Shown here: one piece after another, positions 4,830 to 22,517 of the stretch
How positions within the stretch are numbered: position 1 is the stretch's first letter
Layout: every line of letters begins with the position of its first letter
Assembly: GCF_022549215.1 (NCBI RefSeq)
Contig: NZ_JAKZFC010000001.1
Coordinates: 930,001 to 994,000, forward strand
Direction: 5' to 3'
Length of the DNA: 64,000 nt
Source: Solibacillus palustris
Lineage (GTDB): Bacteria > Bacillota > Bacilli > Bacillales_A > Planococcaceae
Translations under genes and position numbers: made by a program
The notes under the pieces: model-generated
Database searches by the model: none
Told to the model about the DNA's origin: nothing
What the model saw: only the letters and a program-made list of their open reading frames with translations

Positions 4830-4844
4830 GAGGAGTAGGCCATT

Positions 4845-6473: not shown

Positions 6474-6502
6474 AAGCCATCCATTTTCTGGGTGGCTTTT
6501 TT
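6474..6502 (+). terminator. Intrinsic terminator, expression platform of the cobalamin riboswitch
   Basis: AAGCCATCC (6474-6482) pairs with GGGTGGCTT (6490-6498), with one G-T pair, and is followed by a T-run to 6502. Because it lies before the operon's first plausible start codon, any upstream ATG (such as that at 6471) is not a real start. Confidence 0.8.
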
Positions 6503-6554
6503 CATTCCACTTAAGATTTCAAAGAGCAATGAATTTGAAGTGAGGTTGAGAAAG

Positions 6555-8037: not shown

Positions 8038-8049
8038 GCTTATAATAAT

Positions 8050-8080
8050 AGAACATGCCTGATTGTAGGTGTGTTCTTTT
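8050..8080 (+). terminator. Weak hairpin with T-run inside the B12 operon
   Basis: AGAACATGCC (8050-8059) pairs with GGTGTGTTCT (8068-8077), then a short T-run. It may reduce read-through from btuF into cobU, or only stabilise mRNA. Confidence 0.45.
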
Positions 8081-8104
8081 AATTATTTGCAAAGGTGGAC
8101 TACA

Positions 8105-8647
8105 ATGATCTTTATAACTGGCGGAGTACGTAGTGGTAAAAGTGCCTATGCCGAGCAACGTGCCCTGGCTTTGGGGGACGAAAAACACTATTACTATTTT
8201 GCAACGGGTGCCGCGTTTGACGAAGAAATGAAAAAGCGAATTATACGACATCAGCAAGACCGCATGCAGCAAGAAATCAATTGGACAACAGTGGAAATGC
8301 AAGTGGAAATACCCCAACAAATTAATCAAGTATCATCAAATGATGTTGTATTATTTGAATGTGTTACGACATGGCTTTCAAATGTGCTCTATTTAAGTGA
8401 ACAGCAAAAAAATCGTAGCGAATATATCAATAACTGCATCGAATCCCTACAAAAGCAATTGCAAAATTGGCAAGTACAAGGTGCTACAATAATAGTTGTA
8501 TCGAATGAAGTATTAGACGAGCTGCCTTCAAAATATGAGGAAGTGAATTTATATCGCAAGTTGTTAGGAAACTTGCATCAATGGCTTGTGCAGCATAGCC
8601 ATGAAGCTTATGAAGTACAGTTTCAACTTGTACAACGATGGAAATAG
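8105..8647 (+). CDS. cobU: Adenosylcobinamide kinase / guanylyltransferase, CobU-type (copy 1)
   Basis: A 180-residue CobU/CobP-family protein, which phosphorylates adenosylcobinamide and transfers GMP to it. The ATG at 8105 follows AAAGGTGG by seven bases. Visible features are the P-loop GGVRSGKS at 6-13, FATGAAFDEEM, then RIIRHQQDR with His49 (the guanylylated His in the CobU family), a segment like LxECVTTWLSN, and VSNEVLDELP. The C-terminal part is diverged: the usual GIVP after VSNEVG and the final AD-V-GLP motif are absent. Those motifs occur instead in the second CobU-type protein at 9954. Confidence 0.85.
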   Translation: MIFITGGVRSGKSAYAEQRALALGDEKHYYYFATGAAFDEEMKKRIIRHQQDRMQQEINWTTVEMQVEIPQQINQVSSNDVVLFECVTTWLSNVLYLSEQQKNRSEYINNCIESLQKQLQNWQVQGATIIVVSNEVLDELPSKYEEVNLYRKLLGNLHQWLVQHSHEAYEVQFQLVQRWK

Positions 8648-8659
8648 GGGGTGAGCAGG

Positions 8660-9433
8660 TTGAAAAATGCAAGTCAAGGTTTCTTATTAGCGTGGCAGTT
8701 TTTTTCTTTCATACCGATAAAAAAGCAATTAGATATGAATAAAAGCTCGATTACGTGGATGTATGCGAGTTTACCGCTCGTTGGTTTAGTAATTGGTGCA
8801 ATGATAAGCTGTGGTGCGTATTTACTTGTTAGCTATAGCGACATATCCAATTTATTATTGTCGATTTTACTTGTAATTGGCATGGTTATTTTTACTGGTG
8901 GGTTACATTTAGATGGCTTTATCGATATGTGTGATGCCTTTTTTTCATATGGTGATAAAGATAAGCGATTGCAAGTGCTAGATGATCCCCGCACAGGCGC
9001 TTTTGGTGTGTTAGGGATTGTATCATTACTTTTGTTGAAGCTTGGTTTTGTTTATGAAACACTAGCGCAAGGGCAGTTAGGAATGCTTGTGTATATTGTC
9101 ATTATTCCATATATTGCGCGCATCGGGATGCTTGTGTATTTTGTAACAATGAATACGTCGAAAAAAACAGGTTTAGCCGCCTATTTTAAAGAGCAGGTAG
9201 TAAGAAAGCAGCTCATTATTTATAGCGCAGTGCTGTTTACACTAATGAGTGCAGCGCTGATATATACTGGGATTTATAGCTTCTTTATTTTAGTAGCCAT
9301 AATGCTAGCTGTAGTTGTAATTTACCGTAAATGGTCGTATCGGAATTTTGGGGGTATGAGTGGGGATTTACTCGGTGCATTAGGTGAAAGCTTGGAGGTT
9401 GTTTTATGGCTAACAGCGTTACTGTGCATTTAA
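8660..9433 (+). CDS. cobS: Adenosylcobinamide-GDP ribazoletransferase (cobalamin synthase)
   Basis: The membrane enzyme that joins adenosylcobinamide-GDP with alpha-ribazole(-phosphate). The family signature is clear: GGLHLDGFIDMCDAFFSYGDKDKRL, then LDDPRTGAFG, followed by several membrane segments, and GMSGDLLGAL near the C-terminus. About 257 residues, the usual size. The start is uncertain between GTG at 8651, which lies inside the AGGGGGTG ribosome binding site, and TTG at 8660, which is correctly spaced from it. I prefer 8660. It overlaps cobC by 28 bases. Confidence 0.92.
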   Translation: MKNASQGFLLAWQFFSFIPIKKQLDMNKSSITWMYASLPLVGLVIGAMISCGAYLLVSYSDISNLLLSILLVIGMVIFTGGLHLDGFIDMCDAFFSYGDKDKRLQVLDDPRTGAFGVLGIVSLLLLKLGFVYETLAQGQLGMLVYIVIIPYIARIGMLVYFVTMNTSKKTGLAAYFKEQVVRKQLIIYSAVLFTLMSAALIYTGIYSFFILVAIMLAVVVIYRKWSYRNFGGMSGDLLGALGESLEVVLWLTALLCI

Positions 9434-10002
9434 TTCGGCATGAAAAAACGGATGCTAATATAAAGCGCAAATATATCGGCTGGACGGATGAGCCAATTGT
9501 TGAAAATGTAAATATGAGACCGATTTTGCAGCCAGACATTGTCTATGGTAGTGATTTAATGCGCTGTGAACAAACTGCCAATCGCTATTTTCCGCAGGCA
9601 AAATTTAAAGCATACCAAAGTTTACGTGAGCTTCATTTTGGCGACTTTGAAATGAAGACGTATGAAGAATTACAACATAATAAAATGTATCGTGCATGGA
9701 TTGATGATCCGTACAATGTAACACCGCCAAATGGTGAAAGCTTTGAACAATTTAAGCAGAGAGTAGTTCAGACGTTTATGCAAATCGTTGAAGCACAACA
9801 AGACTACACTTTCATTGTGCATGGTGGCGTTATTCGAATACTTCTTTCGCAATTTGGACTTAAAGAAAAAACATTTCAACAAGTGATGGCCAATCATCGG
9901 ACCATTTATACGTTACAATGGGCAACACTTGAGGATTTTATTGGGGGTACGAAATGCACGTCATACTCGGAGGCGCACATAACGGGAAACGTGCGTATGT
10001 AG
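9406..10002 (+). CDS. cobC: Alpha-ribazole phosphatase-like, histidine phosphatase family
   Basis: A 198-residue phosphoglycerate-mutase-fold phosphatase. The first catalytic motif is LIRHEKT with Arg11-His12-Glu13 (RHG is more usual). It is followed by the substrate-pocket motif GSDLMRCEQTA, then ELHFGDFE, and the second catalytic His in IVHGGVIR near residue 145. In this operon the expected job is removing the phosphate from alpha-ribazole phosphate or cobalamin phosphate. Long overlaps with cobS (28 bases) and with the downstream gene (49 bases) show a tightly packed operon. Other small-molecule phosphatase activity cannot be excluded. Confidence 0.82.
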   Translation: MANSVTVHLIRHEKTDANIKRKYIGWTDEPIVENVNMRPILQPDIVYGSDLMRCEQTANRYFPQAKFKAYQSLRELHFGDFEMKTYEELQHNKMYRAWIDDPYNVTPPNGESFEQFKQRVVQTFMQIVEAQQDYTFIVHGGVIRILLSQFGLKEKTFQQVMANHRTIYTLQWATLEDFIGGTKCTSYSEAHITGNVRM

Positions 10003-10382
10003 AAAGAGAAGTCTTAAAATTCAAACAAAGAGAAGTAGTGTTTTTTGAAGGAATAATACCCGATTCATCGTATGAAAATGCAGGGAAAGTACTTGTTATT
10101 AGTGAATTTGAAAAAATCATTGCACCTTTTTTAAATCAACCCGAACAAATTATTGCGCAGGAAATATTTGAGCAAATTGAACATCTGGCACAAAATAATT
10201 TATTGTACTGTATATGTACGGATACGAGCCGTGGTATTGTACCAATAGAGAAAGAGGCACGTCAATTACGAGATACATGTGGACGTTTGTATCAATTACT
10301 ATGTGCGCACGCCGACACGGTAACGCGGGTATGGTATGGAATTCCTCAGCAACTAAAAGGAGATAGTTATGGAGAAAAATAA
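9954..10382 (+). CDS. CobU-type protein, short diverged copy 2
   Basis: A 142-residue protein related to CobU but shorter than the usual 170-200 residues. A P-loop-like N-terminus, LGGAHNGKR at 5-13, has Arg in place of the usual final Ser/Thr. The middle part with the guanylylated His motif is missing. The C-terminal part is well kept: TSRGIVPIEKEARQLRDTCG, then L.AHADTV..VWYGIPQQLK. It therefore lacks what copy 1 (8105) has and keeps what copy 1 lacks. It overlaps cobC by 49 bases and the next gene by 14. Separate kinase and guanylyltransferase roles, or joint action of the two, are inferences. Confidence 0.7.
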   Translation: MHVILGGAHNGKRAYVEREVLKFKQREVVFFEGIIPDSSYENAGKVLVISEFEKIIAPFLNQPEQIIAQEIFEQIEHLAQNNLLYCICTDTSRGIVPIEKEARQLRDTCGRLYQLLCAHADTVTRVWYGIPQQLKGDSYGEK

Positions 10383-10863
10383 ATTACGACTAATTATTTT
10401 AACGGCTTTAATTGCCGCAATTTGTGTGATTGGCAGCATGATTAAAGTGCCAGTAGGAATGATTACAACTGCGGCACTTGATTCGGCCCCGGCTTTTATT
10501 AGCGCGGTATTTTTACCACCTGTTTTTGCAGGAGCAGCAGGTGCGTTTGGACATATTGCCACAGGATTAACTTCAGGATTTCCACTTGGCGTATTTCATG
10601 TTTTAATTGCGATTGAGATGTTTGTTGTTGTAGCTGTTTTTGCATGGTTACATCGAAAAGGGTATCACTTTTTGAAATGGGTTTTTGCAATTGTAGCGAA
10701 TGGCATTATTTCACCGTTACCGTTTTATTTCTTAATTTCGCCAGCATTTTATATCGGTGCATTGCCTTCATTATTCATTGCGACTGTAATCAATGTTGCG
10801 ATTGCGGCGGTTGTCATGCCAGTTCTTAAAACCGTGATTCATCGTGTTGGGGTGAATGCATGA
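10369..10863 (+). CDS. cblT: ECF transporter S component, probable alpha-ribazole transporter CblT
   Basis: A 164-residue membrane protein with about five or six hydrophobic helices. It has the layout of ECF substrate-binding subunits: an N-terminal basic start and helix, then a loop with MITTAALDSAPAFISAVFLPPVFAGAAGAFGH. The next gene is CblS-like, and in Listeria and Geobacillus CblT and CblS together salvage alpha-ribazole (established for those). The B12 riboswitch upstream supports the substrate. It overlaps both neighbours, with ATGA at the 3' end. The shared ECF energising module would come from elsewhere in the genome. ECF assignment is firm; substrate is inferred from context. Confidence 0.75.
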   Translation: MEKNKLRLIILTALIAAICVIGSMIKVPVGMITTAALDSAPAFISAVFLPPVFAGAAGAFGHIATGLTSGFPLGVFHVLIAIEMFVVVAVFAWLHRKGYHFLKWVFAIVANGIISPLPFYFLISPAFYIGALPSLFIATVINVAIAAVVMPVLKTVIHRVGVNA

Positions 10864-11543
10864 GAAATGCAATTGAAGTGAATGAATTCATCGTGACGAT
10901 TGATAATTCTGGCTGTATTGGTAGTAAAGATTTGGACGCAGTGCACGTACCAGACGAAATTACTGCCTATTTCACTGCGCGTACGGCAATATTAGAACAG
11001 CTTTGTGCAGGTGCTCAGCCAATTCAATTATTAATGGCCAATTTTTCGGGGGATGCGGTTTGGGCAAGTTACGAACAGGGCTTTCAACGTGCATTTGATG
11101 AAATGAAGCTTGCCATGCCACCACTTACTGGTTCGAGTGAGTCCAATTTTCAAGCGCTACAATCGGCCGTGTCTTTAACGATTATTGGTCAGAAAAAATT
11201 TCAACGCACGGTACAAGACTGTGTTTTTTTTGTTGTAGGCGAGCCACTTGTTGGAAATGATGTGTTAGCTAATCCAAATAAAGTAGCAAAATTACATGAG
11301 CTTTATGAGGGCTTAGTAGATGAAACCATTGCAGCAATTTGGCCAACTGGGTCGAAGGGCATTGCAACGGAAATCGAACGCTTTATCGGCAAAGGCTATA
11401 CAAGTGATGTGGAGTTACATACTTCTGCCGGGCCATCCTGTGCAGTACTAGTCGCGGTACAACATCAAAATATACAGTCATTTAAAGAGAAAATCTCTGC
11501 GCCAATATATGAAATTACTGCTCTAAAAAAATATTTTAAATAA
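10860..11543 (+). CDS. cblS: Alpha-ribazole kinase, CblS-like (AIR synthase/ThiL fold)
   Basis: A 227-residue cytosolic protein. The AIR-synthase-type N-terminal domain is visible as IDNSGCIGSKDLDAVHVP, then YFTARTAILEQLCAGAQP, then MANFSGDAVW, and LTGSSESNF followed by SLTIIG. These match PurM/ThiL-like phosphate-binding and metal-binding segments. Next to CblT, in a B12 operon, it fits CblS, which phosphorylates alpha-ribazole to alpha-ribazole phosphate, the nucleotide-loop precursor used by CobS. It overlaps cblT by four bases and is the last gene of the operon. Confidence 0.78.
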   Translation: MRNAIEVNEFIVTIDNSGCIGSKDLDAVHVPDEITAYFTARTAILEQLCAGAQPIQLLMANFSGDAVWASYEQGFQRAFDEMKLAMPPLTGSSESNFQALQSAVSLTIIGQKKFQRTVQDCVFFVVGEPLVGNDVLANPNKVAKLHELYEGLVDETIAAIWPTGSKGIATEIERFIGKGYTSDVELHTSAGPSCAVLVAVQHQNIQSFKEKISAPIYEITALKKYFK

Positions 11544-11559
11544 ATATTGAAAAATTATA

Positions 11560-11586
11560 AATTTTCTAAAAATAAAGTGGTAAGAT
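11560..11586 (+). promoter_or_regulatory. Candidate CodY box and extended -10 promoter of ilvE
   Basis: AATTTTCTAAAAATA (11560-11574) matches the CodY consensus AATTTTCWGAAAATT at 13 of 15 positions. Close downstream, TGGTAAGAT (11578-11586) reads as an extended -10 (TG-N-TAAGAT). The box covers the -35 region, which suits repression by CodY when branched-chain amino acids are plentiful. Confidence 0.5.
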
Positions 11587-11625
11587 AGAGTGTATCAATC
11601 TATTTTTAGTTAAGGAGCATGAACA

Positions 11626-12696
11626 ATGACAACGTACCAAATTTCAACGGAGTTAATAACAAATAAAAAAGAGAAAACGCCTGCTGATCAGCTTGGCTTT
11701 GGTCAAGTATTTACAGATCATATGTTTGTGATGGACTATGTGGAAGGGCAAGGCTGGGTAAACCCAACAATTACTGCATATGCTCCAATCGAATTAAGTC
11801 CTGCTGCAATGGTTTTCCATTATGGACAAGCGGTATTTGAAGGCTTAAAGGCATATTTGACAGAAGATGGGGAAGTACAATTATTCCGTCCAGACCGCAA
11901 TTTCAAACGCTTAAATGATTCAAATAAGCGTCTATGTATCCCAGCAATTGATGAAGAACTAGCATTAAATGCGTTAAAAGAATTAATTCGTGTAGATCGT
12001 GATTGGGTTCCTTCTGCACCAGGTACATCACTCTATATTCGTCCATTTATTATTGCGACGGAGCCATATTTAGGCGTAAATCCTGCAAAGAACTATAAAT
12101 TTATGATTATTCTGTCGCCGGTAGGTTCTTATTATAAAGAAGGCATTAATCCGGTGAAAATTTTAGTAGAGCAGCATTATGTACGCGCTGTTGTAGGTGG
12201 TACAGGTGAAGCCAAAACAGCAGGTAACTATGCGTCAAGCTTAAAAGGTTCTGAATTAGCGGCACAACAAGGCTACTCACAGACACTTTGGCTAGATGGT
12301 AAAGAAAATAAATATGTTGAAGAAGTAGGAAGCATGAATATCTTCTTCAAAATTGATGGTAAAGTGATTACACCAGCATTAAACGGTAGTATTTTACCAG
12401 GGATTACACGCGACTCGATGATTCAAGTGTTAAAATCGAAAAACATCCCAGTAGAAGAGCGTGCGATTGCGTTTGAGGAAGTATTAACTGCAGCGAAAAA
12501 CGGTACGCTTGAAGAAGTATTTGGTACAGGTACAGCAGCTGTTATTTCTCCTGTAGGCGAGCTGAAATGGTTAGATGAAATTATTGCTATCAATGATGGA
12601 CAAATCGGGGAAGTAACGCAGATGCTATATGATACATTATTAGGTATTCAATATGGTACATTAGAAGATCCATTTGGTTGGACAATTAAATTATAA
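11626..12696 (+). CDS. ilvE: Branched-chain amino acid aminotransferase
   Basis: A 356-residue, fold-type IV PLP enzyme that interconverts Leu, Ile and Val with their 2-oxo acids. The PLP lysine is Lys197 in GGTGEAKTAGNYASSL. Family motifs include FHYGQAVFEGLKAY, then EVGSMNIFF and LPGITRDSMIQVL. Length is normal. An AAGGAG ribosome binding site precedes the ATG by nine bases. It has its own promoter and a strong terminator at 12704-12737, so it is probably monocistronic. Confidence 0.95.
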   Translation: MTTYQISTELITNKKEKTPADQLGFGQVFTDHMFVMDYVEGQGWVNPTITAYAPIELSPAAMVFHYGQAVFEGLKAYLTEDGEVQLFRPDRNFKRLNDSNKRLCIPAIDEELALNALKELIRVDRDWVPSAPGTSLYIRPFIIATEPYLGVNPAKNYKFMIILSPVGSYYKEGINPVKILVEQHYVRAVVGGTGEAKTAGNYASSLKGSELAAQQGYSQTLWLDGKENKYVEEVGSMNIFFKIDGKVITPALNGSILPGITRDSMIQVLKSKNIPVEERAIAFEEVLTAAKNGTLEEVFGTGTAAVISPVGELKWLDEIIAINDGQIGEVTQMLYDTLLGIQYGTLEDPFGWTIKL

Positions 12697-12703
12697 TCTA
12701 CAC

Positions 12704-12737
12704 AATGCAAGTCGCTTTAAAATGTGGCTTGCATTTT
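12704..12737 (+). terminator. Intrinsic terminator of ilvE
   Basis: AATGCAAGTCGC (12704-12715) pairs with GTGGCTTGCATT (12724-12735), with an 8-base loop and a T-run. Confidence 0.8.
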
Positions 12738-12770
12738 CTATTGCTAAAGTTACGAAAGGGGATAAAGACT

Positions 12771-13163
12771 TTGAAAAAGCTTCTATTCTTCATCTTATGT
12801 CTACTCATCGTAAGTGGATGCACAAATGGCTCCACAACTTCGATATCCATCGAAAAAAAGGTACCAAATAAAATAGAAAAAATTTTAAAAGATAATCCCA
12901 TTGAGAAGGACACCGGGCTACAGTTATTTTCAAATGGAAATGATACCTATTATATTATTTACGAAACAACAAAACAAATGGATTTCATACCGGGAATGCG
13001 TGAAGGGGGAGGTTCGGAAATGACGTTTTTATTTCGTGAAGGTGAGGAACAAAATAAGCTAACTCGCTATGTTTATAAGTTTAAATCTGATAATACAATT
13101 AAAACAATAAACATTTCATTGAATGGCGTACCAACCTCCTTTGATAGAGTGTCACAATATTAA
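12771..13163 (+). CDS. Small lipoprotein of unknown function
   Basis: A 130-residue lipoprotein. The start is a TTG placed nine bases after GAAAGGGG. An in-frame ATG further up lies inside the ilvE terminator and is rejected. The signal peptide LKKLLFFILCLLIVSGC ends in a lipobox (VSGC), so the mature protein is membrane-anchored at a Cys near residue 17. The rest is mixed alpha/beta with an aromatic GNDTYYIIYETT segment and a glycine-rich GGGSEMTFLF. I do not recognise the family. Confidence 0.7.
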   Translation: MKKLLFFILCLLIVSGCTNGSTTSISIEKKVPNKIEKILKDNPIEKDTGLQLFSNGNDTYYIIYETTKQMDFIPGMREGGGSEMTFLFREGEEQNKLTRYVYKFKSDNTIKTINISLNGVPTSFDRVSQY

Positions 13164-13174
13164 TTAGCATATCT

Positions 13175-13218
13175 GAAAAGCCCGAAAACACGGTAGAACT
13201 TGTGCTTTCGGGCTTTTC
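13175..13218. terminator. Bidirectional terminator between the lipoprotein gene and the flotillin locus
   Basis: GAAAAGCCCGAAA (13175-13187) pairs with TTTCGGGCTTTTC (13206-13218). The sequence is nearly symmetrical with T-runs on both strands. On the minus strand it comes directly after the stop of the flotillin C-terminal remnant, so it may be that gene's original terminator. Confidence 0.75.
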
Positions 13219-13219
13219 A

Positions 13220-13360
13220 TTATTTCTTCTCTACATAACTTTCAATTAGCTGTTTTACATCTATACCTGATGATGCTTTTAAGGATTCTTGAAGAGAAGC
13301 CATTAAATCTGTGGCATAGCCTGCCACTTTTCCGGCACCGCCATTTGCTCCCTCATACAT
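13220..13360 (-). pseudogene. Flotillin C-terminal remnant
   Basis: On the minus strand, 46 codons and a stop read MYEGANGGAGKVAG, then YATDLMASLQESLK, then SSGIDVKQLIESYVEKK. This aligns with the C-terminus of the intact FloT at 13543 (ANKVTSYATNLMSTLQETLK, SGLDVKELIESYAGK). An in-frame stop lies directly upstream, so it is cut off from any N-terminal part. With the N-terminal remnant at 15586 it brackets the intact gene. It ends just before the terminator at 13175-13218. Confidence 0.8.
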
Positions 13361-13503
13361 TTACTTTTTCAAATCAACTTCTGGAATTGATAGAAGTAAT
13401 GTTTAGGGTGGATAAAAGACAAACTAAGTAACAAGATAGTATCAAAAATCAACAGTGTTGTAAGAGCAGTTAACTAAGGGTAATTTAAATTTCCTATAAA
13501 AAC

Positions 13504-13541
13504 AATAGCTACCTGACACAGTGTATCAGGTAGCTATTTCC
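13504..13541 (-). terminator. Intrinsic terminator of intact floT
   Basis: AATAGCTACCTGA (13504-13516) pairs with TCAGGTAGCTATT (13526-13538). On the minus strand the hairpin follows the floT stop and leads into TTGTTTTTATAG. Confidence 0.8.
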
Positions 13542-13542
13542 A

Positions 13543-15111
13543 TTATTGCCCCACTGTTTCTTTTTCCTCTACAACTGTTACAGGTGTTTGTTTTTTCTCA
13601 AGCCCATAAGCAATTTTCTCTAGCTCCGGACGTAGCGTATGTTTGCCTGCATAACTTTCAATCAGCTCTTTCACATCAAGCCCAGACGTTTCTTTCAGAG
13701 TTTCTTGCAGTGTTGACATGAGGTTCGTCGCATATGACGTAACTTTATTGGCACCACCACCGCTTTCACCGCCGCCTGTATCAACTACTGTAATCTTATC
13801 GATATTCGCAAGTGGAGTTGCAATTTGTTTTGCGTATTCAGGCATCATTTTCACAACCATATCTAAAATAGCCGCTTGACCGTATTGCTCAAACGCTTCG
13901 GCAATTTTTTGTTTAGCATCAGCTTCTGCTAAACCACGAAGGCGGATAATTTCTGCTTCCGCAGTACCTTGAGCACGTTCAGCTTCAGCTTTGGCAAGAC
14001 CATCTAAGCGTATACGCTCAGCTTGTGCTTGTGCTTGTGTCTCAACGCGATATTTCTCTGCATCAGCTTGTGCAAGCTCTTTTCTTTTTTGTGCTTCTGC
14101 GTTTTGCTCGATGGCATAACGATCAGCATCTGCCTTTTTCTTAACTTCAGAATCATATTGCTTTTCACGACGTAAAATTTCTTTTTCTTCTAGTTCGATT
14201 TGTTTTTGACGTTCAATAATCTTCACTTGCATTTCTTGCTCAGTTACTTCCTGTTTCGCACGTGCTGATTCTAATTCATATGCTTGGTCGGCACGAGCTT
14301 TTGCAATATCTTGCTCTCTACGATATTCAGCAACTTTTAATTGATTTTCTTTTTCTGCTTCTGCAATCTCTGTTGCACGTTCAAGTTCCGCTTTTTTAGC
14401 TTCTTGTGCCGCTTGCGCACGTTTAATTCGTGTTTCTTTATCTGCTTCCGCTGTCGCAATATCAGCATCACGTTTTACTTGTGCGATACGAGGTTTACCA
14501 AGAGAATCTAAATACCCATTATTATCTTGTACATCTTTGATTGTGAACGAAACAATAATTAAGCCCATTTTCGCTAAATCTTGAGAGGCAACGCGTTGTA
14601 CTTCTTGTGAGAATTTATCACGGTTTTTATAAATTTCTTCAACAGTCATTGAACCTAAGATTGAACGTAAGTGACCTTCTAACACTTCACGTGCTTCACC
14701 TTCACGCTCGCTTTTTTGTTTTCCTAAAAATTGTTCCGCAGCCGTTGCAATTTCAGAAATTGATCCGCCGATTTTAATAATTGCAGTGGCACTTGCCATT
14801 ACTTTAACACCTTGTTCTGTATAAACTTCGGGTGTAGTTACTTCTAACTTGCTTGAAAGTAAGCTAAGCGGTTTTGCTTGCTGGAACACAGGGAACACGA
14901 ATGTACCACCGCCACGGATAATTTTAATTTTATTCCCCGAATCATCTGTGTGTACATTTTTGCCACCTAAATAACTACCTGTTACAATTAATGCCTCATC
15001 TGCTCCCGCTGTTTTATATTTTGAAACGTATACCGCCACAATAGCAATAATTAAAAAAACAACAACACCTACTGCAATTAAACTACCTAATCCGACTAAC
15101 TCATCTAACAT
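13543..15111 (-). CDS. floT: Flotillin-like membrane-microdomain protein
   Basis: A 522-residue SPFH-domain protein (B. subtilis FloT/YuaG is slightly shorter). It starts with a membrane hairpin segment (LIAVGVVVFLIIAIVAVYVSKY), then the SPFH domain to about residue 210. A long charged coiled coil follows (about 215-400) with the flotillin EA-rich repeats (AEAEKE, AQAQAERIR, AQGTAEAEIIRLRGLAEADAK), then a Gly/Ser linker and a short conserved tail. It scaffolds ordered membrane domains. The gene has its own sigma-W-type promoter about 200 bp upstream and its own terminator. It lies between two remnants of a diverged flotillin. Confidence 0.93.
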   Translation of the reverse strand: MLDELVGLGSLIAVGVVVFLIIAIVAVYVSKYKTAGADEALIVTGSYLGGKNVHTDDSGNKIKIIRGGGTFVFPVFQQAKPLSLLSSKLEVTTPEVYTEQGVKVMASATAIIKIGGSISEIATAAEQFLGKQKSEREGEAREVLEGHLRSILGSMTVEEIYKNRDKFSQEVQRVASQDLAKMGLIIVSFTIKDVQDNNGYLDSLGKPRIAQVKRDADIATAEADKETRIKRAQAAQEAKKAELERATEIAEAEKENQLKVAEYRREQDIAKARADQAYELESARAKQEVTEQEMQVKIIERQKQIELEEKEILRREKQYDSEVKKKADADRYAIEQNAEAQKRKELAQADAEKYRVETQAQAQAERIRLDGLAKAEAERAQGTAEAEIIRLRGLAEADAKQKIAEAFEQYGQAAILDMVVKMMPEYAKQIATPLANIDKITVVDTGGGESGGGANKVTSYATNLMSTLQETLKETSGLDVKELIESYAGKHTLRPELEKIAYGLEKKQTPVTVVEEKETVGQ

Positions 15112-15316
15112 AAATCATTTCCTCCTTAATTTTTATTTAATTAGAAGAACCTTTGTAATTGGGCTGAACAAAGGTTATTCTAAATATTTAGATAATTAAA
15201 AATGGAGTATTATATGTTTTTTTGTACTTCCACTTTTAACTATTGTTTCTAAAGACATCTTGTAATTACGTAAATTTAGAGGTATTCACATAATAAATTG
15301 TGAATTATAGTATTTA

Positions 15317-15342
15317 TACGGTTTGAATTACATTTGGTTTCA
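15317..15342 (-). promoter_or_regulatory. Sigma-W-type promoter of intact floT
   Basis: On the minus strand TGAAAC (15342-15337) and CGTA (15320-15317) are separated by exactly 16 bases, a full match to the B. subtilis sigma-W consensus. It lies about 205 bp upstream of the floT start. An AACCTTTGT/ACAAAGGTT inverted repeat follows in the leader. Confidence 0.7.
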
Positions 15343-15382
15343 AAATATTTCTAAAAAAAGAAAAAATTAGAGGTTTTGATGA

Positions 15383-15466
15383 AATGATTGGGATGGCCAA
15401 AATGTCTTTTATCGTTATCAATTGGCTGGAAATGAATTTGTTGTGAATCCGAAACTTGTACGATGA
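15383..15466 (+). other. Coding-like fragment in the 474-bp floT upstream region
   Basis: The gap 15112-15585 holds the floT leader, its promoter and little else. On the plus strand, 27 codons before a stop read NDWDGQNVFYRYQLAGNEFV and then VNPKLVR. The amino-acid mix looks like real protein, but there is no start, ribosome binding site or upstream coding sequence. It may be a remnant of a lost gene or chance. Confidence 0.2.
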
Positions 15467-15585
15467 TATAATGTTAGTAGGAAATTTTCATAATAGCGAT
15501 AATATGCTTTTAATTTAATTTCAAAAAGGAGTTAAGAACCCTTTTAATTAAGGTGTTCTAAGCTCCTATTAATTGCTTCTTTTTA

Positions 15586-15855
15586 TTAGTATTCGCCTTC
15601 AAGTTTACTTGACAGCAAGCTTAAAGGCTGAGCTTGTTGGAAAACAGGGAATACAAATGTACCACCACCGCGGATAATTTTAATGCGGTTGCCCGATTCA
15701 TCGGTATGTACATTGTTACTTCTTAAATAGCTACCTGTAACAATAAGTGCTTCATCTGGACCTGCTGTGCGGTATTTCATAATATAGACTGCTACAATTG
15801 CAAGAATTAAAAATAAGACAACCCCAATGGCAATAAGTGTACCTAACATAAACAT
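15586..15855 (-). pseudogene. Flotillin N-terminal remnant
   Basis: An 89-residue frame reproduces the first 85 or so residues of flotillin: the membrane segment LIAIGVVLFLILAIVAVYIMKY, then AGPDEALIVTGSY, NNVHTDESGN, IKIIRGGGTFVFPVFQQAQPLSLLSSKLE. It then ends abruptly at GEY-stop where intact FloT continues with VTTPEVYTEQG. The DNA differs from intact floT at many positions, so the two copies are old paralogues. The start still has its place 12 bp after the NfeD-like gene, as yuaG follows yuaF in B. subtilis. A short membrane peptide could still be made. Confidence 0.8.
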
Positions 15856-15867
15856 CTACCTTGTATT

Positions 15868-16398
15868 TTAAAATGTAAATTCTTCGTTTTCATAGATTGC
15901 TACAAAAGCTGTTCCTTCACGAATTTCTATGATTAAAACGTGGGTATCATAAGGAATTTCGACATTATGATAACTAGCAGCCCGTTTTGCAATAATGCCG
16001 TTTACCCCTTCTATCACGATTTCTCCATAGCCGTCTAACGGAATTGGGACAATTACTCGAGCAACCTGACTTTCAAGTGAAGCATCAGTATAGGCTAATG
16101 AAACTTCGGCGGAGCGTAGTGGAACAAGTAAGAAAAAATAAAGTAGTGCGGTAAAAATGCTCGAAATAATTAGAGAGATAGCAAGATTGATAATACTTGA
16201 AAGGGATAAAAAGCGTTCGAAAATGTATCCAGCGGCGGCTGTAAAAGTAATGAAGGATAAAATAATGGATGGATCAAAAATAGGAATTGTGTCCAACGAA
16301 ACATCTGCCATGTCTGCGAAAAATAAATACAAAACCGTACAGCAGCCGATGGCGATTAAAATAGTTAAGTAAATCACTTCTAATGAGTACCCAAACAT
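15868..16398 (-). CDS. NfeD-like membrane protein (YuaF-like)
   Basis: A 176-residue membrane protein with three or four helices in the first 115 residues and a C-terminal soluble domain. The soluble domain includes ARVIVPIPLDGYGEIVIEG, then AKRAASYHNVEIPYDTHVLIIEI, which is the OB-fold NfeD domain. In B. subtilis yuaF-yuaG(floT) form a sigma-W operon and work together in membrane order and fluidity. The same order and a matching promoter are seen here. The gene that now follows directly is only a flotillin remnant, and the intact floT is transcribed from its own promoter. Confidence 0.85.
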   Translation of the reverse strand: MFGYSLEVIYLTILIAIGCCTVLYLFFADMADVSLDTIPIFDPSIILSFITFTAAAGYIFERFLSLSSIINLAISLIISSIFTALLYFFLLVPLRSAEVSLAYTDASLESQVARVIVPIPLDGYGEIVIEGVNGIIAKRAASYHNVEIPYDTHVLIIEIREGTAFVAIYENEEFTF

Positions 16399-16431
16399 TT
16401 TAACACCTCCTTTGATTTCATTACTTACTTA

Positions 16432-16457
16432 TACGGAATAAAATGGATAAAGTTTCA
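16432..16457 (-). promoter_or_regulatory. Sigma-W-type promoter of the NfeD-like gene
   Basis: On the minus strand TGAAAC (16457-16452) and CGTA (16435-16432) are separated by exactly 16 bases. The start codon is about 35 bp downstream, after an AAAGGAGGTG ribosome binding site. It is the same consensus as the one before floT (15317-15342). Confidence 0.75.
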
Positions 16458-16485
16458 GAAAAAACAAAATTTTTTATATTAAAAC

Positions 16486-16518
16486 AAAAATCATTTCCGC
16501 ATTCGGAAATGATTTTTT
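16486..16518 (-). terminator. Terminator hairpin overlapping the 3' codons of the YunD-like gene
   Basis: AAAAATCATTTCC (16486-16498) pairs with GGAAATGATTTTT (16505-16517). The stop of the minus-strand gene (16491-16493) lies within the left arm, so the last codons of the protein are part of the hairpin. T-runs on both sides make it bidirectional. Confidence 0.7.
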
Positions 16519-17936
16519 ACTTGTGTTTGTATGGGACTATTTTTTTGAATGTATGCCATCATTAGTTTTGGGACAAATTCGCTAGTTTCGTAAATAGGAT
16601 TTTTATGAAACATAGCATAATCATGTGCACCAGTTGCTCGGTAGCTATTGATGACAACACTAAATATTTCGTTGTCTTGCATTTCATGTCCATTATATTC
16701 ACATGAGACAACTCGCTGACCAACAGGATGTCTTAAACAAATTTCATAGTCCAAGCCTCCCCAAAGATCATAAACAAAAGGGTGTGGCTGTGGGTAATGG
16801 ACATTCATACTAAAGTCGATTTCGTCTTGCGTATTGATAGCGAATACACTGGCACTTAGTTCGAGTGCTTCGCGAATTTCAGCACCCGTCATTTCAATTT
16901 TTACAAGTCGATTTTGGCGCGGTAAATTATGTAACACATCTTTTCGAGTAATTTGCTTTGGGAATCCACCGTTTTGATGATACGGAAGCTCGATAACTGA
17001 TAGCTGTGCCTTCGTATAGTGCATTTGCATGTCATGCAGAAGCTGTACATAATCAGTTTGCATTGTGCGAGGTGTGAAAAAATTGCTGTATTGTAAATCA
17101 CATGCGCTCTCGCCAATCATTTCATTTTTCCACTTATCAAATGCGGCATCAGTAAATGAAGGTAATGAGTCATCCACGTAAACTAAAGTTGGTTTATGGT
17201 TAATATTGCCGCCCTCGATTGTTACATCGATTTGTGCAAAACATTTAGCATTGGCTCCAGGTTGAACGACAGAGATACCATTTATTTTAGTAGCAATTTC
17301 TAAATGCTGATGTCCGGTGATGAAAAGGTCAATACCATCAATTTCATGAAGCATGCGATAACCCTCATTTTCGCCTTCTAGCAAATCAATCAGATGACCG
17401 GTCTGCAAATCTCGTTCAAAGCCCCCGTGGTAGCATAAAATAACGAAATCTACCTGCTCGTGTGCGCGTACATGTTTCACAGTTTTTTGTGCAGCGTCAA
17501 AGGCTTGCTCAAAATGTAAAGATTTTGTTGCTGTGCCTTCATCCCAAAGTGGTGTGAAATGTGTCACAACACCGATGACCGCCACGCGAATTCCATGAAT
17601 GTCTTTTATAATATAGTCTTTTGCGAATGCTTGTATATTGGCTGCGATCCAAGGGAAATTACAAGCATTACGCATCGCTTCAATTGCAGGAAGGGGATAA
17701 TTGAATTCATGATTCCCGAAAACCGCCACATCATATCGTAGGGCATTGGCCATGCTGATTTGTGGGTGCTCACAACGTTGTATATTTTCATAAAAATAGC
17801 TTAAATGACTTCCTTGCAAAAAATCGCCATTATCGATTAAAAGCTCGGGCTGTCGGTCATTAATCATAGAGGCGAGCTGTGAAAAATGTTCGGTATGTCC
17901 GTGTATGTCACTTGTCGCGATAATTGAAAATTTCAT
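16491..17936 (-). CDS. Bifunctional metallophosphatase / 5'-nucleotidase (YunD-like)
   Basis: A 481-residue protein: an N-terminal calcineurin-type phosphoesterase domain with SDIHGH near residue 10, IDNGDFLQGS near 38, GNHEFNYP near 73-80, CYHGG, and GHQH near 205; then a 5'-nucleotidase C-terminal domain from about 300 to the end. There is no signal peptide, so it is cytosolic like B. subtilis YunD. The ATG at 17936 is eight bases after AAAGGAAG; another ATG six bases further up is too close to it. It is expected to hydrolyse nucleotides or related phosphates; the exact substrate is not shown. Confidence 0.85.
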   Translation of the reverse strand: MKFSIIATSDIHGHTEHFSQLASMINDRQPELLIDNGDFLQGSHLSYFYENIQRCEHPQISMANALRYDVAVFGNHEFNYPLPAIEAMRNACNFPWIAANIQAFAKDYIIKDIHGIRVAVIGVVTHFTPLWDEGTATKSLHFEQAFDAAQKTVKHVRAHEQVDFVILCYHGGFERDLQTGHLIDLLEGENEGYRMLHEIDGIDLFITGHQHLEIATKINGISVVQPGANAKCFAQIDVTIEGGNINHKPTLVYVDDSLPSFTDAAFDKWKNEMIGESACDLQYSNFFTPRTMQTDYVQLLHDMQMHYTKAQLSVIELPYHQNGGFPKQITRKDVLHNLPRQNRLVKIEMTGAEIREALELSASVFAINTQDEIDFSMNVHYPQPHPFVYDLWGGLDYEICLRHPVGQRVVSCEYNGHEMQDNEIFSVVINSYRATGAHDYAMFHKNPIYETSEFVPKLMMAYIQKNSPIQTQVKNHFRMRK

Positions 17937-17998
17937 GTACATAACTTCCTTTGTGCTTCGTTGTTGCTATTATAGCGCGAATTATTGCGCAATAGTGG

Positions 17999-18013
17999 TG
18001 AAAATGATTAAAT
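17999..18013 (+). promoter_or_regulatory. Possible Fur box before the haem monooxygenase gene
   Basis: TGAAAATGATTAAAT matches the Fur core TGATAATNATTATCA at 10 of 14 fixed positions, mostly in the left half and centre. It lies 20 bp before the ribosome binding site. Related Bacillus genes are Fur-controlled, but the match is weak. Confidence 0.3.
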
Positions 18014-18047
18014 GAAAAGGAAGAGAAAATTTGGAGGAGTGATTTTC

Positions 18048-18371
18048 ATGATTACAGTAACAAATCGCATTAAAGTAAAAAAAGGATTTGCAACAATGAT
18101 GGCTCCAAAATTCGTACAGCCAGGACCATTACAACAATTTGAAGGCTTCCAAAAAGTTGAAGTATTAATTGCAACTCAATTTGAAGAGTACGATGAGATG
18201 AGCGTTGTGATGTATTGGGATACGAAAGAGAATTTTGCTGTATGGCGTGAAAGTGATGCCTTTAAAGAATCACATAAACGTCCAGCGGGTGGACCTAGTG
18301 CACAGGGCGAGTCACCGATGCTAGGCTCTGAAATTGTAATTGCTGAAGTAGCAGCTTCCATTTCAAAATAA
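18048..18371 (+). CDS. Haem-degrading monooxygenase, IsdG/HmoA family
   Basis: A 107-residue ABM-fold protein that opens haem and releases iron. The start is the ATG at 18048, ten bases after TTGGAGGAG. The catalytic triad of the IsdG family is in place: Asn6 (TVTNRIKV), Trp66 (NFAVWRES) and His76 (FKESHKRP), with nearly the same numbering as in staphylococcal IsdG (Asn7, Trp67, His77). It is monocistronic, with a terminator at 18402. Possible iron control is noted at 17999. Confidence 0.85.
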   Translation: MITVTNRIKVKKGFATMMAPKFVQPGPLQQFEGFQKVEVLIATQFEEYDEMSVVMYWDTKENFAVWRESDAFKESHKRPAGGPSAQGESPMLGSEIVIAEVAASISK

Positions 18372-18401
18372 GAAGCAACAATTTTGTCTAAGAATAAAAA
18401 T

Positions 18402-18438
18402 AGCCTGTCGATTTGTAAACGACAGGCTCCTTTTATAA
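18402..18438. terminator. Terminator between convergent genes
   Basis: AGCCTGTCG (18402-18410) and CGACAGGCT (18420-18428) form a 9-bp stem, followed by TCCTTTT. It also closes the convergent gene at 18433 with an A-run on the other side. Confidence 0.75.
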
Positions 18439-19047
18439 TGTTTGATGCGATTTATTATTGATAAAGTCTTGGTAGAAGAAACTTGCTTCGTCACAACATT
18501 TTTTGACGAGAAGTTCAAATTCATTGGAAGAATTCAAATGCTGAATCAAAATTTTCACTAGAATCGCTTGATCTTTCATAAAGGGTTGTAATAATTCCTT
18601 ACTTTGCAAATGCATTAAATAATAGTGACATTGCTGATTGCGTTTAATTAAAGGGCGCTGATTAGCAATTTTTAAGATTTTTACATACCAATTATTTATT
18701 TGCTTTGTTAGTAGGATTGATAAAATATAGATATGTTCTAATGTAGTGTCCGGATGAGAGCGGAAATAATTAATATAGTAATCATTTTTCAACGCATTAA
18801 ACATTATATGGTTCGAAGAATAGTAGAGTATTTTATCGAAAGACTCGATAATATCTTCTTCTTCGCGATGTAATAGCACCCAAAAATTAAATGCAGAAAT
18901 CCACATATCTTTCATATTATAATAACTAGTATCATCAATCGGTATCTTCAATAAGGGATTCATTTTTTCAGCTAATTGCTGGAAATCAAAGACATACTGC
19001 TCATTGATAAAAAATAAACTGTGCTCAAATGTGATTTGATTATACAT
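18433..19047 (-). CDS. Hypothetical protein
   Basis: A 204-residue protein of unknown family. It is rich in aromatic and charged residues and probably all-helical, with no clear signal peptide or membrane helix. Notable stretches are FNFWVLLHREEEDIIESFDKI and EHIYILSILLTKQINNWYVKIL, and a CC pair near residue 185 in VKKCCDEASFF. It is monocistronic and divergent from the gene at 19353. The codon pattern and a GGTGG-like ribosome binding site before the ATG support a real gene. Confidence 0.6.
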   Translation of the reverse strand: MYNQITFEHSLFFINEQYVFDFQQLAEKMNPLLKIPIDDTSYYNMKDMWISAFNFWVLLHREEEDIIESFDKILYYSSNHIMFNALKNDYYINYFRSHPDTTLEHIYILSILLTKQINNWYVKILKIANQRPLIKRNQQCHYYLMHLQSKELLQPFMKDQAILVKILIQHLNSSNEFELLVKKCCDEASFFYQDFINNKSHQTL

Positions 19048-19352
19048 AGATTTTCCACCTCATTTAACTTGCTTCAGCAAATTCTTTTTTTAACATAAAA
19101 TTGCTACTAGTTTTGGTGAAGTTATGATCTATTGTCTAAACTTCCTATGAAATATCAATAAAACCAACAATTAGGTCTTACGATTGTTCTTATTATCGCC
19201 AACTTTAGATAGATTATTATCTAAAAAGCAATATATAGTTCAAATGAATACTAGAAATCCTAATATTGTATGATGTTGAGAGATTAATATTCATCAAATA
19301 CTCACATCAATAATTTTGAAATTACAAGGTAAAAGGTAGGAGAATACGACTT
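19048..19352. other. Intergenic region between divergent genes; one inverted repeat
   Basis: This 305-bp AT-rich gap separates two divergent genes of unknown function. The only feature I see is a perfect 8-bp inverted repeat, TTTAGATA at 19204-19211 and TATCTAAA at 19218-19225, with a 6-base spacer. It could be an operator for either promoter. No open frame or known site was noticed. Confidence 0.35.
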
Positions 19353-20045
19353 ATGATGAACATGGAGCAATACTTTTACGATGGTCAATTTTTAAAAAGC
19401 TATAAAGCAGCACTACAGGATCTAACAAATGAAAGTAGAAAACAGTATTTAGTAATATTCGAGAAGTATGAGTACGCAAATTTCCCTCAACCAACTGCAC
19501 AGCTTCAACAGAGTATAGAACGTGCTAATGAAAGCTATGAGGAATTAGATGAGGTCGAACAATTACGTGCGATTCAAGATGAAGGACAATTTGCACAAAC
19601 TATTAAAGAACTTGAAAATGACGCGCGTACATCAGATGATGTGCGAAAAGCGGAATCCTTTTTCGTACAAGCGCAGTTATTTTTAATGGCACATCATTAC
19701 GATGAAAGTATTCATTGCTTTATGCAAGCAGTAAAGCATAATCCAAATAAGGCATTATATTATGGCTTTGCAGGGCAAACGATGAATCGTTTTAGTTGGT
19801 CGCCGTTTGATACATTACCTTACATAGAACGTGCCATTGATCTGGACCTACAAAATGCACGTTGGTATTGGAATAAGGCACTGGTTTTAACCCAGTTATA
19901 TAAAGATTTGCAAGCAGAGCCGTTTTTAGAAAATGCGCTGATTGCGATTGAGAAAGCAATTGAAGTTTGTCGTGAAGACCAAATATCATTACGAAATGGT
20001 ATCGACTCAACGTTGGAAAATTTAAAGGAATATTTATTTAATTAA
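19353..20045 (+). CDS. TPR-like repeat protein, function unknown
   Basis: A 230-residue soluble protein. The second half has tetratricopeptide-type helices: FFVQAQLFLMAHHYDESIHCFMQAVKHNPNKALYYGFAGQ at about 110-150, then PYIERAIDLDLQNARWYWNKALVLTQLY, and NALIAIEKAIEV. The first half is charged and helical. Such folds usually bind other proteins. An AGGTAGGAG ribosome binding site precedes the start; ATG codons at 19353, 19356 and 19362 all lie in frame. The membrane protein gene at 20059 follows after 13 bp and is probably co-transcribed. Confidence 0.65.
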   Translation: MMNMEQYFYDGQFLKSYKAALQDLTNESRKQYLVIFEKYEYANFPQPTAQLQQSIERANESYEELDEVEQLRAIQDEGQFAQTIKELENDARTSDDVRKAESFFVQAQLFLMAHHYDESIHCFMQAVKHNPNKALYYGFAGQTMNRFSWSPFDTLPYIERAIDLDLQNARWYWNKALVLTQLYKDLQAEPFLENALIAIEKAIEVCREDQISLRNGIDSTLENLKEYLFN

Positions 20046-20058
20046 CCGGGGGCACAGC

Positions 20059-20499
20059 ATGAAGAGCAAAAAGTTTTTGTCATGGAAAGGTATTTCGATT
20101 TATTTAACGATTATTTTATTTTTAGTCATTTTCATTCAAATGATGGATCAAAATAAGCGTGATGAAAAAGAGGGGCAGTACTTAGCTGAAATCGAAAAGT
20201 CATATTTACAGCTTGTTGATTTTCAAACGTATATTATAAATGATGAAGTGCAAGTAGATTCCAACAAGCATGTATTAGTGATGGCGCAGAGGGATTTCCA
20301 ATACCAGCTAAGCCTGTTTATCGATATTTTTGGTAATAAGGAAAAAGGTGAGTATAGCTTGTATGACTTTTATGCTGAAGCAGACAAAGCGTTGCAAGCC
20401 TTTTATGACGCCTCTACAAAAGAGCAACAAACGGCTGCACACGAACAGCTACTTGCAATCAAACAGCCTCTATTTACACTGATTGGCGATCAAAAATAA
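20059..20499 (+). CDS. Single-pass membrane protein, function unknown
   Basis: A 146-residue protein with one membrane helix near residues 12-28 (ISIYLTIILFLVIFIQMM), preceded by a basic N-terminus. About 115 charged, probably helical residues follow and are expected outside the cell. A CCGGGGG-type ribosome binding site precedes the ATG. It follows the TPR-like gene by 13 bp and ends at a strong terminator, so the two form a small operon. I do not recognise the family. Confidence 0.6.
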   Translation: MKSKKFLSWKGISIYLTIILFLVIFIQMMDQNKRDEKEGQYLAEIEKSYLQLVDFQTYIINDEVQVDSNKHVLVMAQRDFQYQLSLFIDIFGNKEKGEYSLYDFYAEADKALQAFYDASTKEQQTAAHEQLLAIKQPLFTLIGDQK

Positions 20500-20502
20500 A
20501 AC

Positions 20503-20544
20503 GAAAAAAGCTCACGGGACGAAAATTCGTTTTGTGAGCTTTTC
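20503..20544. terminator. Bidirectional terminator
   Basis: GAAAAAAGCTCAC (20503-20515) pairs with GTGAGCTTTTC (20534-20544). It ends the gene at 20059 and the converging lia operon. Confidence 0.8.
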
Positions 20545-20545
20545 A

Positions 20546-20857
20546 TTATTTTTTCTTTGATTTGACAAACGCTATCACGAAGCAAACAACTTGAATTACC
20601 ACTATGGCAATTAACATATAAAAGTCTTTTCTTGAGCCGCCTAAGTTCAATTCATCAACTAAAATTCCTGAAATATAGAATAGCTGTGCACTTAGAAGGA
20701 TGATAAACGTGCCAATAAATAGCATAATTTTGGGATTAATCGCAAAACGCAGTACGATAATAACAAATAGTGCACTGAAGATTAATATCAATGTGAATAA
20801 TGGATCGAGTAATGTTAAAGTACCGTCCTTGGCAAAGTTTTCGTACGAATAATTCAT
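20546..20857 (-). CDS. Small membrane protein at the end of the lia operon
   Basis: A 103-residue protein with three hydrophobic segments: about residues 18-40, 43-66 and 80-97, ending in a KSKKK tail. It starts 12 bp after the response regulator gene on the same strand behind an AAGGAGTTG ribosome binding site, so it belongs to the lia operon. I do not recognise its family. A role in envelope stress is suggested only by position. Confidence 0.6.
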   Translation of the reverse strand: MNYSYENFAKDGTLTLLDPLFTLILIFSALFVIIVLRFAINPKIMLFIGTFIILLSAQLFYISGILVDELNLGGSRKDFYMLIAIVVIQVVCFVIAFVKSKKK

Positions 20858-20869
20858 AAAGGCAACTCC

Positions 20870-21499
20870 TTATTTTACAAGTCCATTTTGGAACGCATAG
20901 ACAACGGCTTGGGTGCGGTCTTGAACTTCTAATTTACTTAAAATATTACTAACATGTGTTTTTACCGTTTTTAAGGCAATAAATAATTCCTCGGCAATTT
21001 CTTGATTTGCTAATCCGCGCGCCATACATTGCAATACTTCCATTTCGCGCTCTGTTAAATGGTCATGTAGTGCAGGAGCAATTCCACGCATACGCGCCAT
21101 GACCTTTGTTGTTGCTTCGGGTTCTAGTACCGTTTCACCTGCAATCGTTTTACGAATCGCATCGGCAATTTGCTTGGCATTACTTGTTTTTAAAATATAG
21201 CTTACGGCACCAGCTTCTAATGCAGGATATAGCTTATCATCATCGATAAAGCTAGTTACCATCATCACTTTTGCTTGCGGCCAGGTTGCTAAAATTTCGG
21301 CAGTTGCTTGTGCCCCATTTTTAATAGGCATGACGTTGTCCATGAGTACAATATCAGGCTTTAGGGAAAGTGCTTTTTCTATTGCTTCTTGGCCATTCGA
21401 TGCTTCTCCGATTACTTCAATATCCGGTTGCGCAGAAAGATAAGCGGCTACACCAATACGAACCATTTCATGATCATCTGCAATGACTACTTTAATCAT
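20870..21499 (-). CDS. liaR: Envelope-stress response regulator, LiaR/VraR type
   Basis: A 209-residue NarL-family regulator. The receiver domain has the acidic pair Asp8-Asp9, the phosphoacceptor Asp54 in VLMDNVMP, and the conserved Lys in YILKTSN. The C-terminal LuxR-type helix-turn-helix has LTEREMEVLQCMARGLANQEIAEELFIALKTVKTHVSNIL. It overlaps liaS by eight bases. Together with LiaF and LiaS it matches the three-component system that senses interference with lipid II, and it should activate the liaI-liaH genes upstream in this same cluster. Confidence 0.9.
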   Translation of the reverse strand: MIKVVIADDHEMVRIGVAAYLSAQPDIEVIGEASNGQEAIEKALSLKPDIVLMDNVMPIKNGAQATAEILATWPQAKVMMVTSFIDDDKLYPALEAGAVSYILKTSNAKQIADAIRKTIAGETVLEPEATTKVMARMRGIAPALHDHLTEREMEVLQCMARGLANQEIAEELFIALKTVKTHVSNILSKLEVQDRTQAVVYAFQNGLVK

Positions 21500-22517
21500 T
21501 TGTTTGTTCCTCCTTCTTTAATGGAACTTTTACTTCAACAATTGTCCCTTTGTTTGGAACAGATACAATTTTATACGTACAACCAATTTCAACCGCACGT
21601 TCTGCGATATTGCGTAGGCCGTAAGAGGATGTTTTATCACCGTCATTATCGAAGCCAAGGCCGTTATCTTGAATGCGTAAAATGGCTAAGTCGTCACGCG
21701 CAATAAATAATAGCTCGACTTCATTCGCTTTTGCATGACGCAGCGTATTGGATAATGCTTCTTGGGCGATGCGGAAAAGATGGTCTTCTTCGGCTTTTCC
21801 TAGTGTAATTTCTTCGATTTGATAGTCAATATTAAAGTACACTTTTTCCTGAAGTTCAACAATTAAATCCTCTAATCCTTCTGCCAAGCTTTTATTGCGC
21901 AGTGCGACAGGGCGTAGATGTAACAGCAACGCGCGCATTTCAAGTTGGGCTTGCTGTACGACTTTCTCGACTTGGGCTAGCTGTTTTTGTGAATGTTCGT
22001 TCGCTTCTTGCTCAGTTAATGCAGATAGAAGCATGGATGCCGCAAAAAGCTGCTGTGATACAGAGTCGTGTAGCTCACGTGCTAAACGCTGGCGCTCGGC
22101 AAGTAGGCGTTCTTGAACAATCGCATCGTTTGTTTCAACCTTTTCACTTGCTAGGCGCTGTAATGATGAACGCTGTGTTTCGATCAGTTCGTTTGCATCA
22201 TGCAATGCTTTTTTTAAAGAGCTATTTGCATGTTTCACTTTTTGAGGAAAATCTGGCTGTGCCACCTTTTTAACAAGACGTGTCGTTTGATTTTCCTTTA
22301 GTTTTACGGCAATAGTCATCCAAATGGCAATAAAAAAGCTAAAGCTTGCTGCGACAATGACCATTATTGCAGCGAGTGGCAGATCAAATTCGCGATTATC
22401 TATTAAAAAGCGCCAAGTATCCTCCCGCGGTGCGCCATATAAAAAAACTAAAATATTGAAGGCAAAAGATAGAAAAAGTAATAAGAGAATCGTTAAGCGG
22501 ACTAAAAAGGCAATCAT
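21492..22517 (-). CDS. liaS: Envelope-stress sensor kinase, LiaS/VraS type
   Basis: A 341-residue HisKA_3 kinase. Two membrane helices (about 7-27 and 48-70) frame a very short outer loop, as in intramembrane-sensing kinases. The phosphorylated His150 is in LARELHDSVSQQLFA, and the ATPase domain has RIAQEALSNTLRHA and DNGLGFD near the C-terminus. The start is the ATG at 22517, overlapping the liaF stop (ATGA); longer forms would run into liaF. The lack of a large outer sensor domain fits control by LiaF. Confidence 0.9.
   Translation of the reverse strand: MIAFLVRLTILLLLFLSFAFNILVFLYGAPREDTWRFLIDNREFDLPLAAIMVIVAASFSFFIAIWMTIAVKLKENQTTRLVKKVAQPDFPQKVKHANSSLKKALHDANELIETQRSSLQRLASEKVETNDAIVQERLLAERQRLARELHDSVSQQLFAASMLLSALTEQEANEHSQKQLAQVEKVVQQAQLEMRALLLHLRPVALRNKSLAEGLEDLIVELQEKVYFNIDYQIEEITLGKAEEDHLFRIAQEALSNTLRHAKANEVELLFIARDDLAILRIQDNGLGFDNDGDKTSSYGLRNIAERAVEIGCTYKIVSVPNKGTIVEVKVPLKKEEQTND

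Follow-up and report, generated by a model that had tools for sequence, protein, structure and literature searches.

In Bacillus subtilis, yuaF-yuaG(floT)-yuaI makes up a core SigW operon, as stated in passages of PMC3498285, and, according to extracts of PMC2636767, most SPFH genes of the flotillin type are found in one operon with an NfeD homologue. Xenologous gene displacement has already been described (excerpts of PMC1274311). In the T6SS clusters of Vibrio, excerpts of PMC5361080 report that effector modules are displaced sequentially, with older pieces left downstream, and that the proposed mechanism is homology-facilitated illegitimate recombination. Our literature search for flotillin together with Solibacillus found no paper, and a search on flotillin remnants, pseudogenes or transfer returned, judged by titles, none on flotillin displacement.

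We analysed a stretch of 64,000 nucleotides from Solibacillus palustris (contig NZ_JAKZFC010000001.1, positions 930,001 to 994,000), here called the window. On its minus strand, a complete flotillin gene lies between two flotillin remnants, the 5' stub and the 3' stub, behind an nfeD-like gene. The parts of the locus, in the order in which the minus strand is read, are as follows.

16432..16457 (-): SigW-type promoter 5' of nfeD (TGAAAC, 16 nt, CGTA), from a pattern search
15868..16398 (-): nfeD/yuaF-like gene, 176 aa, an ORF whose orthologues adjoin a flotillin in 18/18 loci compared
15586..15855 (-): 5' stub of the resident type-A flotillin, an 89-aa frame of codons 1-86 plus 3 foreign codons
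15527..15567 (-): terminator-like hairpin in the interval between 5' stub and second promoter, -16.3 kcal/mol, z -3.4
15317..15342 (-): SigW-type promoter of intact floT (TGAAAC, 16 nt, CGTA), ~205 nt upstream of the start codon
13543..15111 (-): complete floT, tail type B, 522 aa; NF058507, Band_7 and Flot domains
13504..13538 (-): intrinsic terminator of intact floT, from the terminator scan, -24.1 kcal/mol, z -6.2
13220..13360 (-): 3' stub of a type-A flotillin, a 46-aa open frame with ~43 codons homologous
13174..13219 (-): terminator 3' of the 3' stub, common to the G013 flotillin; inverted repeat, -28.6 kcal/mol, 96% over 51 nt to G013

As in the B. subtilis operon (passages of PMC3498285), an NfeD-like gene stands beside floT and is preceded by a SigW-type promoter; unlike there, a stub and a hairpin stand between nfeD and the working floT of the window, and this floT has a SigW-type site of its own. 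The locus resembles xenologous displacement, as outlined in parts of PMC1274311, in that an ortholog comes in from a different lineage and the resident disappears, in this case from the very position that the newcomer takes up, but it differs in that both older flotillin ends are still readable and the newcomer carries its own promoter-like site. With the Vibrio clusters, as presented in parts of PMC5361080, it shares the replacement of an old gene by a new module while pieces of earlier occupants stay downstream; in contrast, only one scaffold gene of housekeeping type is concerned, an immunity gene has not been kept, and, as the donor was not found, neither junction could be shown to have a homologous anchor. 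We consider it probable that floT was replaced in situ by a xenologue and that the stubs are the scars. A relative's allele would then have taken the place of a conserved scaffold gene inside a single species, and the older ends can still be read: a well-preserved but ordinary evolutionary scar, left by a kind of event already known.

The four minus-strand frames of the original prediction, namely nfeD, a flotillin start, a complete floT and a flotillin end, are all present in the list of open reading frames. Its figure of about 85 codons for the start agrees with the 86 found, whereas of the 46 codons given for the end only ~43 are homologous. The intact product scores 832 bits against NCBIfam NF058507 (cut-off 700), covers model positions 2-476 of 477 and thus qualifies as FloT; in Pfam it has the Band_7 and Flot domains. 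A genome search returned exactly three flotillin matches, the two stubs and the intact gene, and because the latter is the sole complete flotillin of the genome, it presumably supplies FloT, which its family suggests to be the membrane-microdomain scaffold. The 89-aa frame matches intact FloT at 69/83 residues (E = 2e-48) and NF058507 at positions 2-79 (E = 1.6e-32, score 113), and the 46-aa frame matches the FloT tail at 23/34 residues (E = 1e-14). The homology of 13220-13360 to flotillin C-termini, on which the prediction had staked itself, is there, at NF058507 positions 436-476 of 477 (E = 8.5e-12, score 45). Both stub scores lie below the FloT cut-off and neither stub has a Pfam match at E <= 0.001; the NF058507 E values of the two stubs nevertheless argue that their homology to flotillin is not chance. 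The 176-aa NfeD-like protein has no Pfam or NCBIfam match, and its label comes from position and length.

Comparison was made within a genus set of 16 genomes, consisting of the window's own genome, G061 of the same species and 14 others. Flotillin is found in 16/16, with one match in 14 genomes, two in G009 and three in the window's genome; an intact flotillin is present once in every one of the 15 others searched. Tail type A (GGAGKVT.YATDLM...SSGIDVK) occurs in 13/16, and type B (ANKVT.YATNLMSTLQETLKETSGLDVK...HTLRPEL) in the window, G011, G002 and the Lysinibacillus-type (g14) genomes that were read. The two types are distinct in the last ~150 nt; the remaining gene is mosaic within the genus, and in the full-length tree the A/B split is weak (54/91), with the bootstrap not settled. 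The original prediction had suggested looking for an unbroken NfeD-flotillin pair in relatives, and this exists in both G061 and the sister species G013, where a type-A gene directly follows nfeD. In all, flotillin adjoins nfeD in 18/18 loci compared, including that of G028, where it is split into two frames. The G028 flotillin (L067, about 3518-4974, plus strand) matches in two pieces that overlap but lie in different frames, which would fit a frameshift or a sequencing error.

The intact gene and the 5' stub have different relatives. The intact gene is 86% identical to G011 and 77% to G061 at the nucleotide level, groups with G011 (100/99), and is rejected as a member of the clade of G013 and G061 (p-AU 5e-66). 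Over 249 nt, the 5' stub shares 94.4% of its nucleotides with G061 and 89.2% with G013, and it falls into the clade of these two (99/98); a group of 5' stub and intact gene is rejected (p-AU 0.0002). Its homology to the type-A gene stops at 15597, that is at codon 86, and the last three codons (GEY) are non-flotillin. On these sequence comparisons, the 5' stub is the start of a resident G061-like type-A gene. The phylogeny of the gene is therefore at odds with that of its surroundings, as displacement implies: floT goes with G011, and the flanks are 97-98% identical to G061. Furthermore, the resident ortholog was lost at the very same place, type A being intact in G061 and G013 and left here as the 5' stub. 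The insertion scenario of the original prediction thus stands insofar as a foreign version with its own promoter-like site sits in a resident nfeD-flotillin locus; its idea of a retained paralogue gives way to a xenologue that displaced the resident copy, given the single intact flotillin in each of the other genus genomes searched.

Synonymous divergence agrees with the claim that no recent duplication took place. With dS above about 1 to be read as near saturation, the 5' stub and the intact gene differ by a dS of about 1.7, which rules out a recent duplication, and the intact gene stands at 1.17-1.76 from five type-A genes. Between the intact gene and G011, dS is 0.73, compared with 1.01-3.56 for seven other genes of the same genome pair; for G002, it is 0.91, and the seven other genes start at 1.37. 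As floT is below the seven other genes in both pairs, the transfer of the type-B allele between species seems to postdate their split. G011 is nearest to the intact gene yet is not the donor.

Outside the locus, G061 and the window are closely similar, with 98.0% identity over 5191-12696 and 97.1% over 19100-24472. Identity is 92.1% over 15597-19098, and the flotillins of the two are 79.6% identical by local alignment and 77.3% over the aligned gene. Sliding identity shows an uneven dip, inside which some segments reach 96%. Four genes outside the patch have a dS of 0.04-0.12 to G061, three within it one of 0.29-0.36. The diverged patch (12697-19099) suggests that recombination touched ~12.7-19.1 kb in either the window strain or G061; the right edge coincides with ~215 bases present in G061 only and is a rough limit. 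A lipoprotein-like frame (by eye) lies beside the locus at 12771-13163 on the plus strand; it is also found in G013 and in none of the other 17 loci compared, has no counterpart at this place in G061 and has no Pfam match.

Between the stub boundaries, the window carries ~2.25 kb of other DNA where G061 has ~1.07 kb of flotillin. Similarity of the intact gene to G011 spans 15149 to 13533. Upstream of it, the matches to 15150-15596 in 261 family genomes do not exceed 73 nt, and the donor was not found. Downstream, 13361-13560 gave matches of 28-70 nt in five other genomes, all g14, three of them at the end of that genome's own flotillin; the similar sequence behind the flotillins of these three genomes suggests that the floT terminator goes with type B. 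Searched against the rest of the genome, the intergenic insert DNA gave eight other matches, the best with E 0.13. Among the 25 longest of 60 inverted-repeat pairs, no pair exactly frames the insert; a weak pair (21 nt, 76%) at 13487-13507 and 15467-15487 lies 109-126 nt inside the insert boundaries. Carriage by a mobile element was considered and rejected, as the four plasmid and five phage records that matched are all at 60-80% identity. The plasmid matches fall on flotillin or SPFH genes, and the phage records, which are without annotation, match inside the floT coding region only. A short plus-strand frame in the insert, at about 15410-15466, looks protein-like by eye.

The sites at 16457-16432 and 15342-15317 both read TGAAAC, 16 nt, CGTA, which we take to be the SigW-type consensus. 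Such a string did not turn up in PMC3498285. The strict pattern occurs four times on the minus strand of the window and not on the plus strand, with 0.15 expected per strand in 64 kb; the other two sites are at 36354 and 30724, also on the minus strand. A relaxed pattern precedes nfeD in 16/19 related loci and is missing in G011, G028 and G031, G011 having a one-letter variant before nfeD. Of the three hairpins of the locus (15527-15567, 13504-13538, 13174-13219), only that of floT, 13504-13538, was listed by the terminator scan.

In the displacement that we favour, the ancestor would have had the usual nfeD-floT pair with a type-A flotillin, for which the 5' stub, G061 and G013 serve as evidence. 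Recombination with DNA of another Solibacillus lineage would then have brought in a type-B unit comprising hairpin, SigW-type promoter, floT and terminator. The nfeD gene keeps its SigW-type promoter, and its transcript probably ends at the hairpin 15527-15567; the hairpin and the second promoter suggest that floT is not transcribed from the nfeD promoter. The two genes would now form separate SigW-type units, and both should still be envelope-stress responsive while no longer sharing one transcript. If the swap does uncouple floT from nfeD, the strain could show, as an experiment of nature, whether FloT and NfeD have to be produced jointly. Both stubs are most likely without function.

Whether the two remnants come from one gene, as the original prediction had proposed to check, receives a divided answer: the 5' stub belongs with G061 and G013, whereas placing the 3' stub in the same clade is borderline (p-AU 0.051, long branch). 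In the 3' stub, the homologous part starts at 13351. Its letters are those of type A, and the tree test rejects a group of this stub with the intact gene, G011 and G002 (p-AU 0.009). An alignment of 129 nt gives the stub 75% identity with G013 and likewise with G061; G013 and G061 share 91% with each other, and the closest relative of the stub is G014 at 79%; dS to G013 and G061 is about 1.5-1.8. About 21 synonymous and 11 nonsynonymous changes make up the 32 differences between the stub and G013. Neutral decay would make about three in four changes nonsynonymous, and finding at most 9 nonsynonymous changes among the 20 in excess of the G013-G061 level has a chance of 0.003 under it (rough binomial, few sites). 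The divergence, mostly at synonymous sites, thus appears to go beyond simple decay of a G061/G013 gene. The C-terminal extension that G013 and G061 have is missing from the 3' stub, as it is from G010 and G032. These points, together with a 3' relic behind the intact flotillin of G009, favour a variant of displacement in which two flotillins left the stubs: the 3' stub would go back to a previous occupant, or to one that had already recombined, and the 5' stub to the G061-like gene, with type B as the latest addition. We put this variant somewhat short of an even chance, since the clade of the 3' stub with G013 and G061 is not rejected and the stub is followed by the terminator of the G013 flotillin and then by G013's next gene (77.7% aa). 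Moreover, with a dN of 0.09-0.19, higher than the 0.03 of the pair G013 and G014, the stub looks in part as if it had evolved under relaxed constraint, and decay may account for some of its divergence. For a one-gene origin of the stubs, position speaks in favour and sequence leans against; both would be accommodated by a resident gene whose tail had already been recombined. Displacement of the resident floT would hold without a shared gene of origin.

The other reading of the original prediction, a tandem A-B-A array with decayed outer members, is disfavoured and in our view improbable: the order and orientation of the pieces fit it, and tandem SPFH duplications beside NfeD occur in other groups (extracts of PMC2636767), but there is no tandem flotillin in the 16 genus genomes, G061 has a plain nfeD-floT pair, and two separate large deletions would be required. 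Furthermore, when pieces from the 5' part, the middle and the 3' part of flotillin were run in tblastn (E <= 0.01) against 100 loci, only two, the window and G009, had additional fragments, leaving 98/100 without any; the 100 loci are the window, 19 relatives and 80 from a named collection, with at least three overlapping (G004, G019, G032). The prediction had also suggested that the 89-residue frame could act on FloT or NfeD. Such a working product is very improbable, even though the frame is open, follows nfeD at the usual position and shows predominantly synonymous changes relative to G061 (about 10.5, against 3.5 nonsynonymous ones), for its Shine-Dalgarno sequence is weakened (AAGGTAG, with GAGGAGG in G061 and a stronger one also in G013), it lacks a Pfam match and most of the SPFH domain, and it has diverged too little for selection on the shortened product to become visible. 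An assembly artefact, to which a draft genome of 42 contigs might give rise, is hardly credible, as the contig measures 1.42 Mb, with the locus far from its ends, and the stated contamination is 0.74%.

G009 has a comparable relic, a frame-broken flotillin 3' end at L061 2703-2843 on the minus strand, beyond the terminator of the intact gene. The relic is closest to G010 (75% over 124 nt), and the intact gene combines a 5' region that groups with G002 (95/93) with a type-A tail. Flotillin replacement and mosaicism at this locus are not confined to the window. A wider proposal, which we consider rather unlikely, is that the Solibacillus nfeD-floT locus is a site of repeated flotillin replacement by whole and mosaic alleles, leaving 3' relics in the window and G009, as if the tail were under changing selection (e.g. 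from agents attacking membrane microdomains), and that the swap seen here also uncoupled floT from nfeD expression. Elsewhere in the window, a dispersed repeat of ~60 nt is present at 3215-3280 and 23240-23299, with copies also in G061; it has at least 25 matches in the genome, the window copy included, among the 40 of 62 candidates scored.
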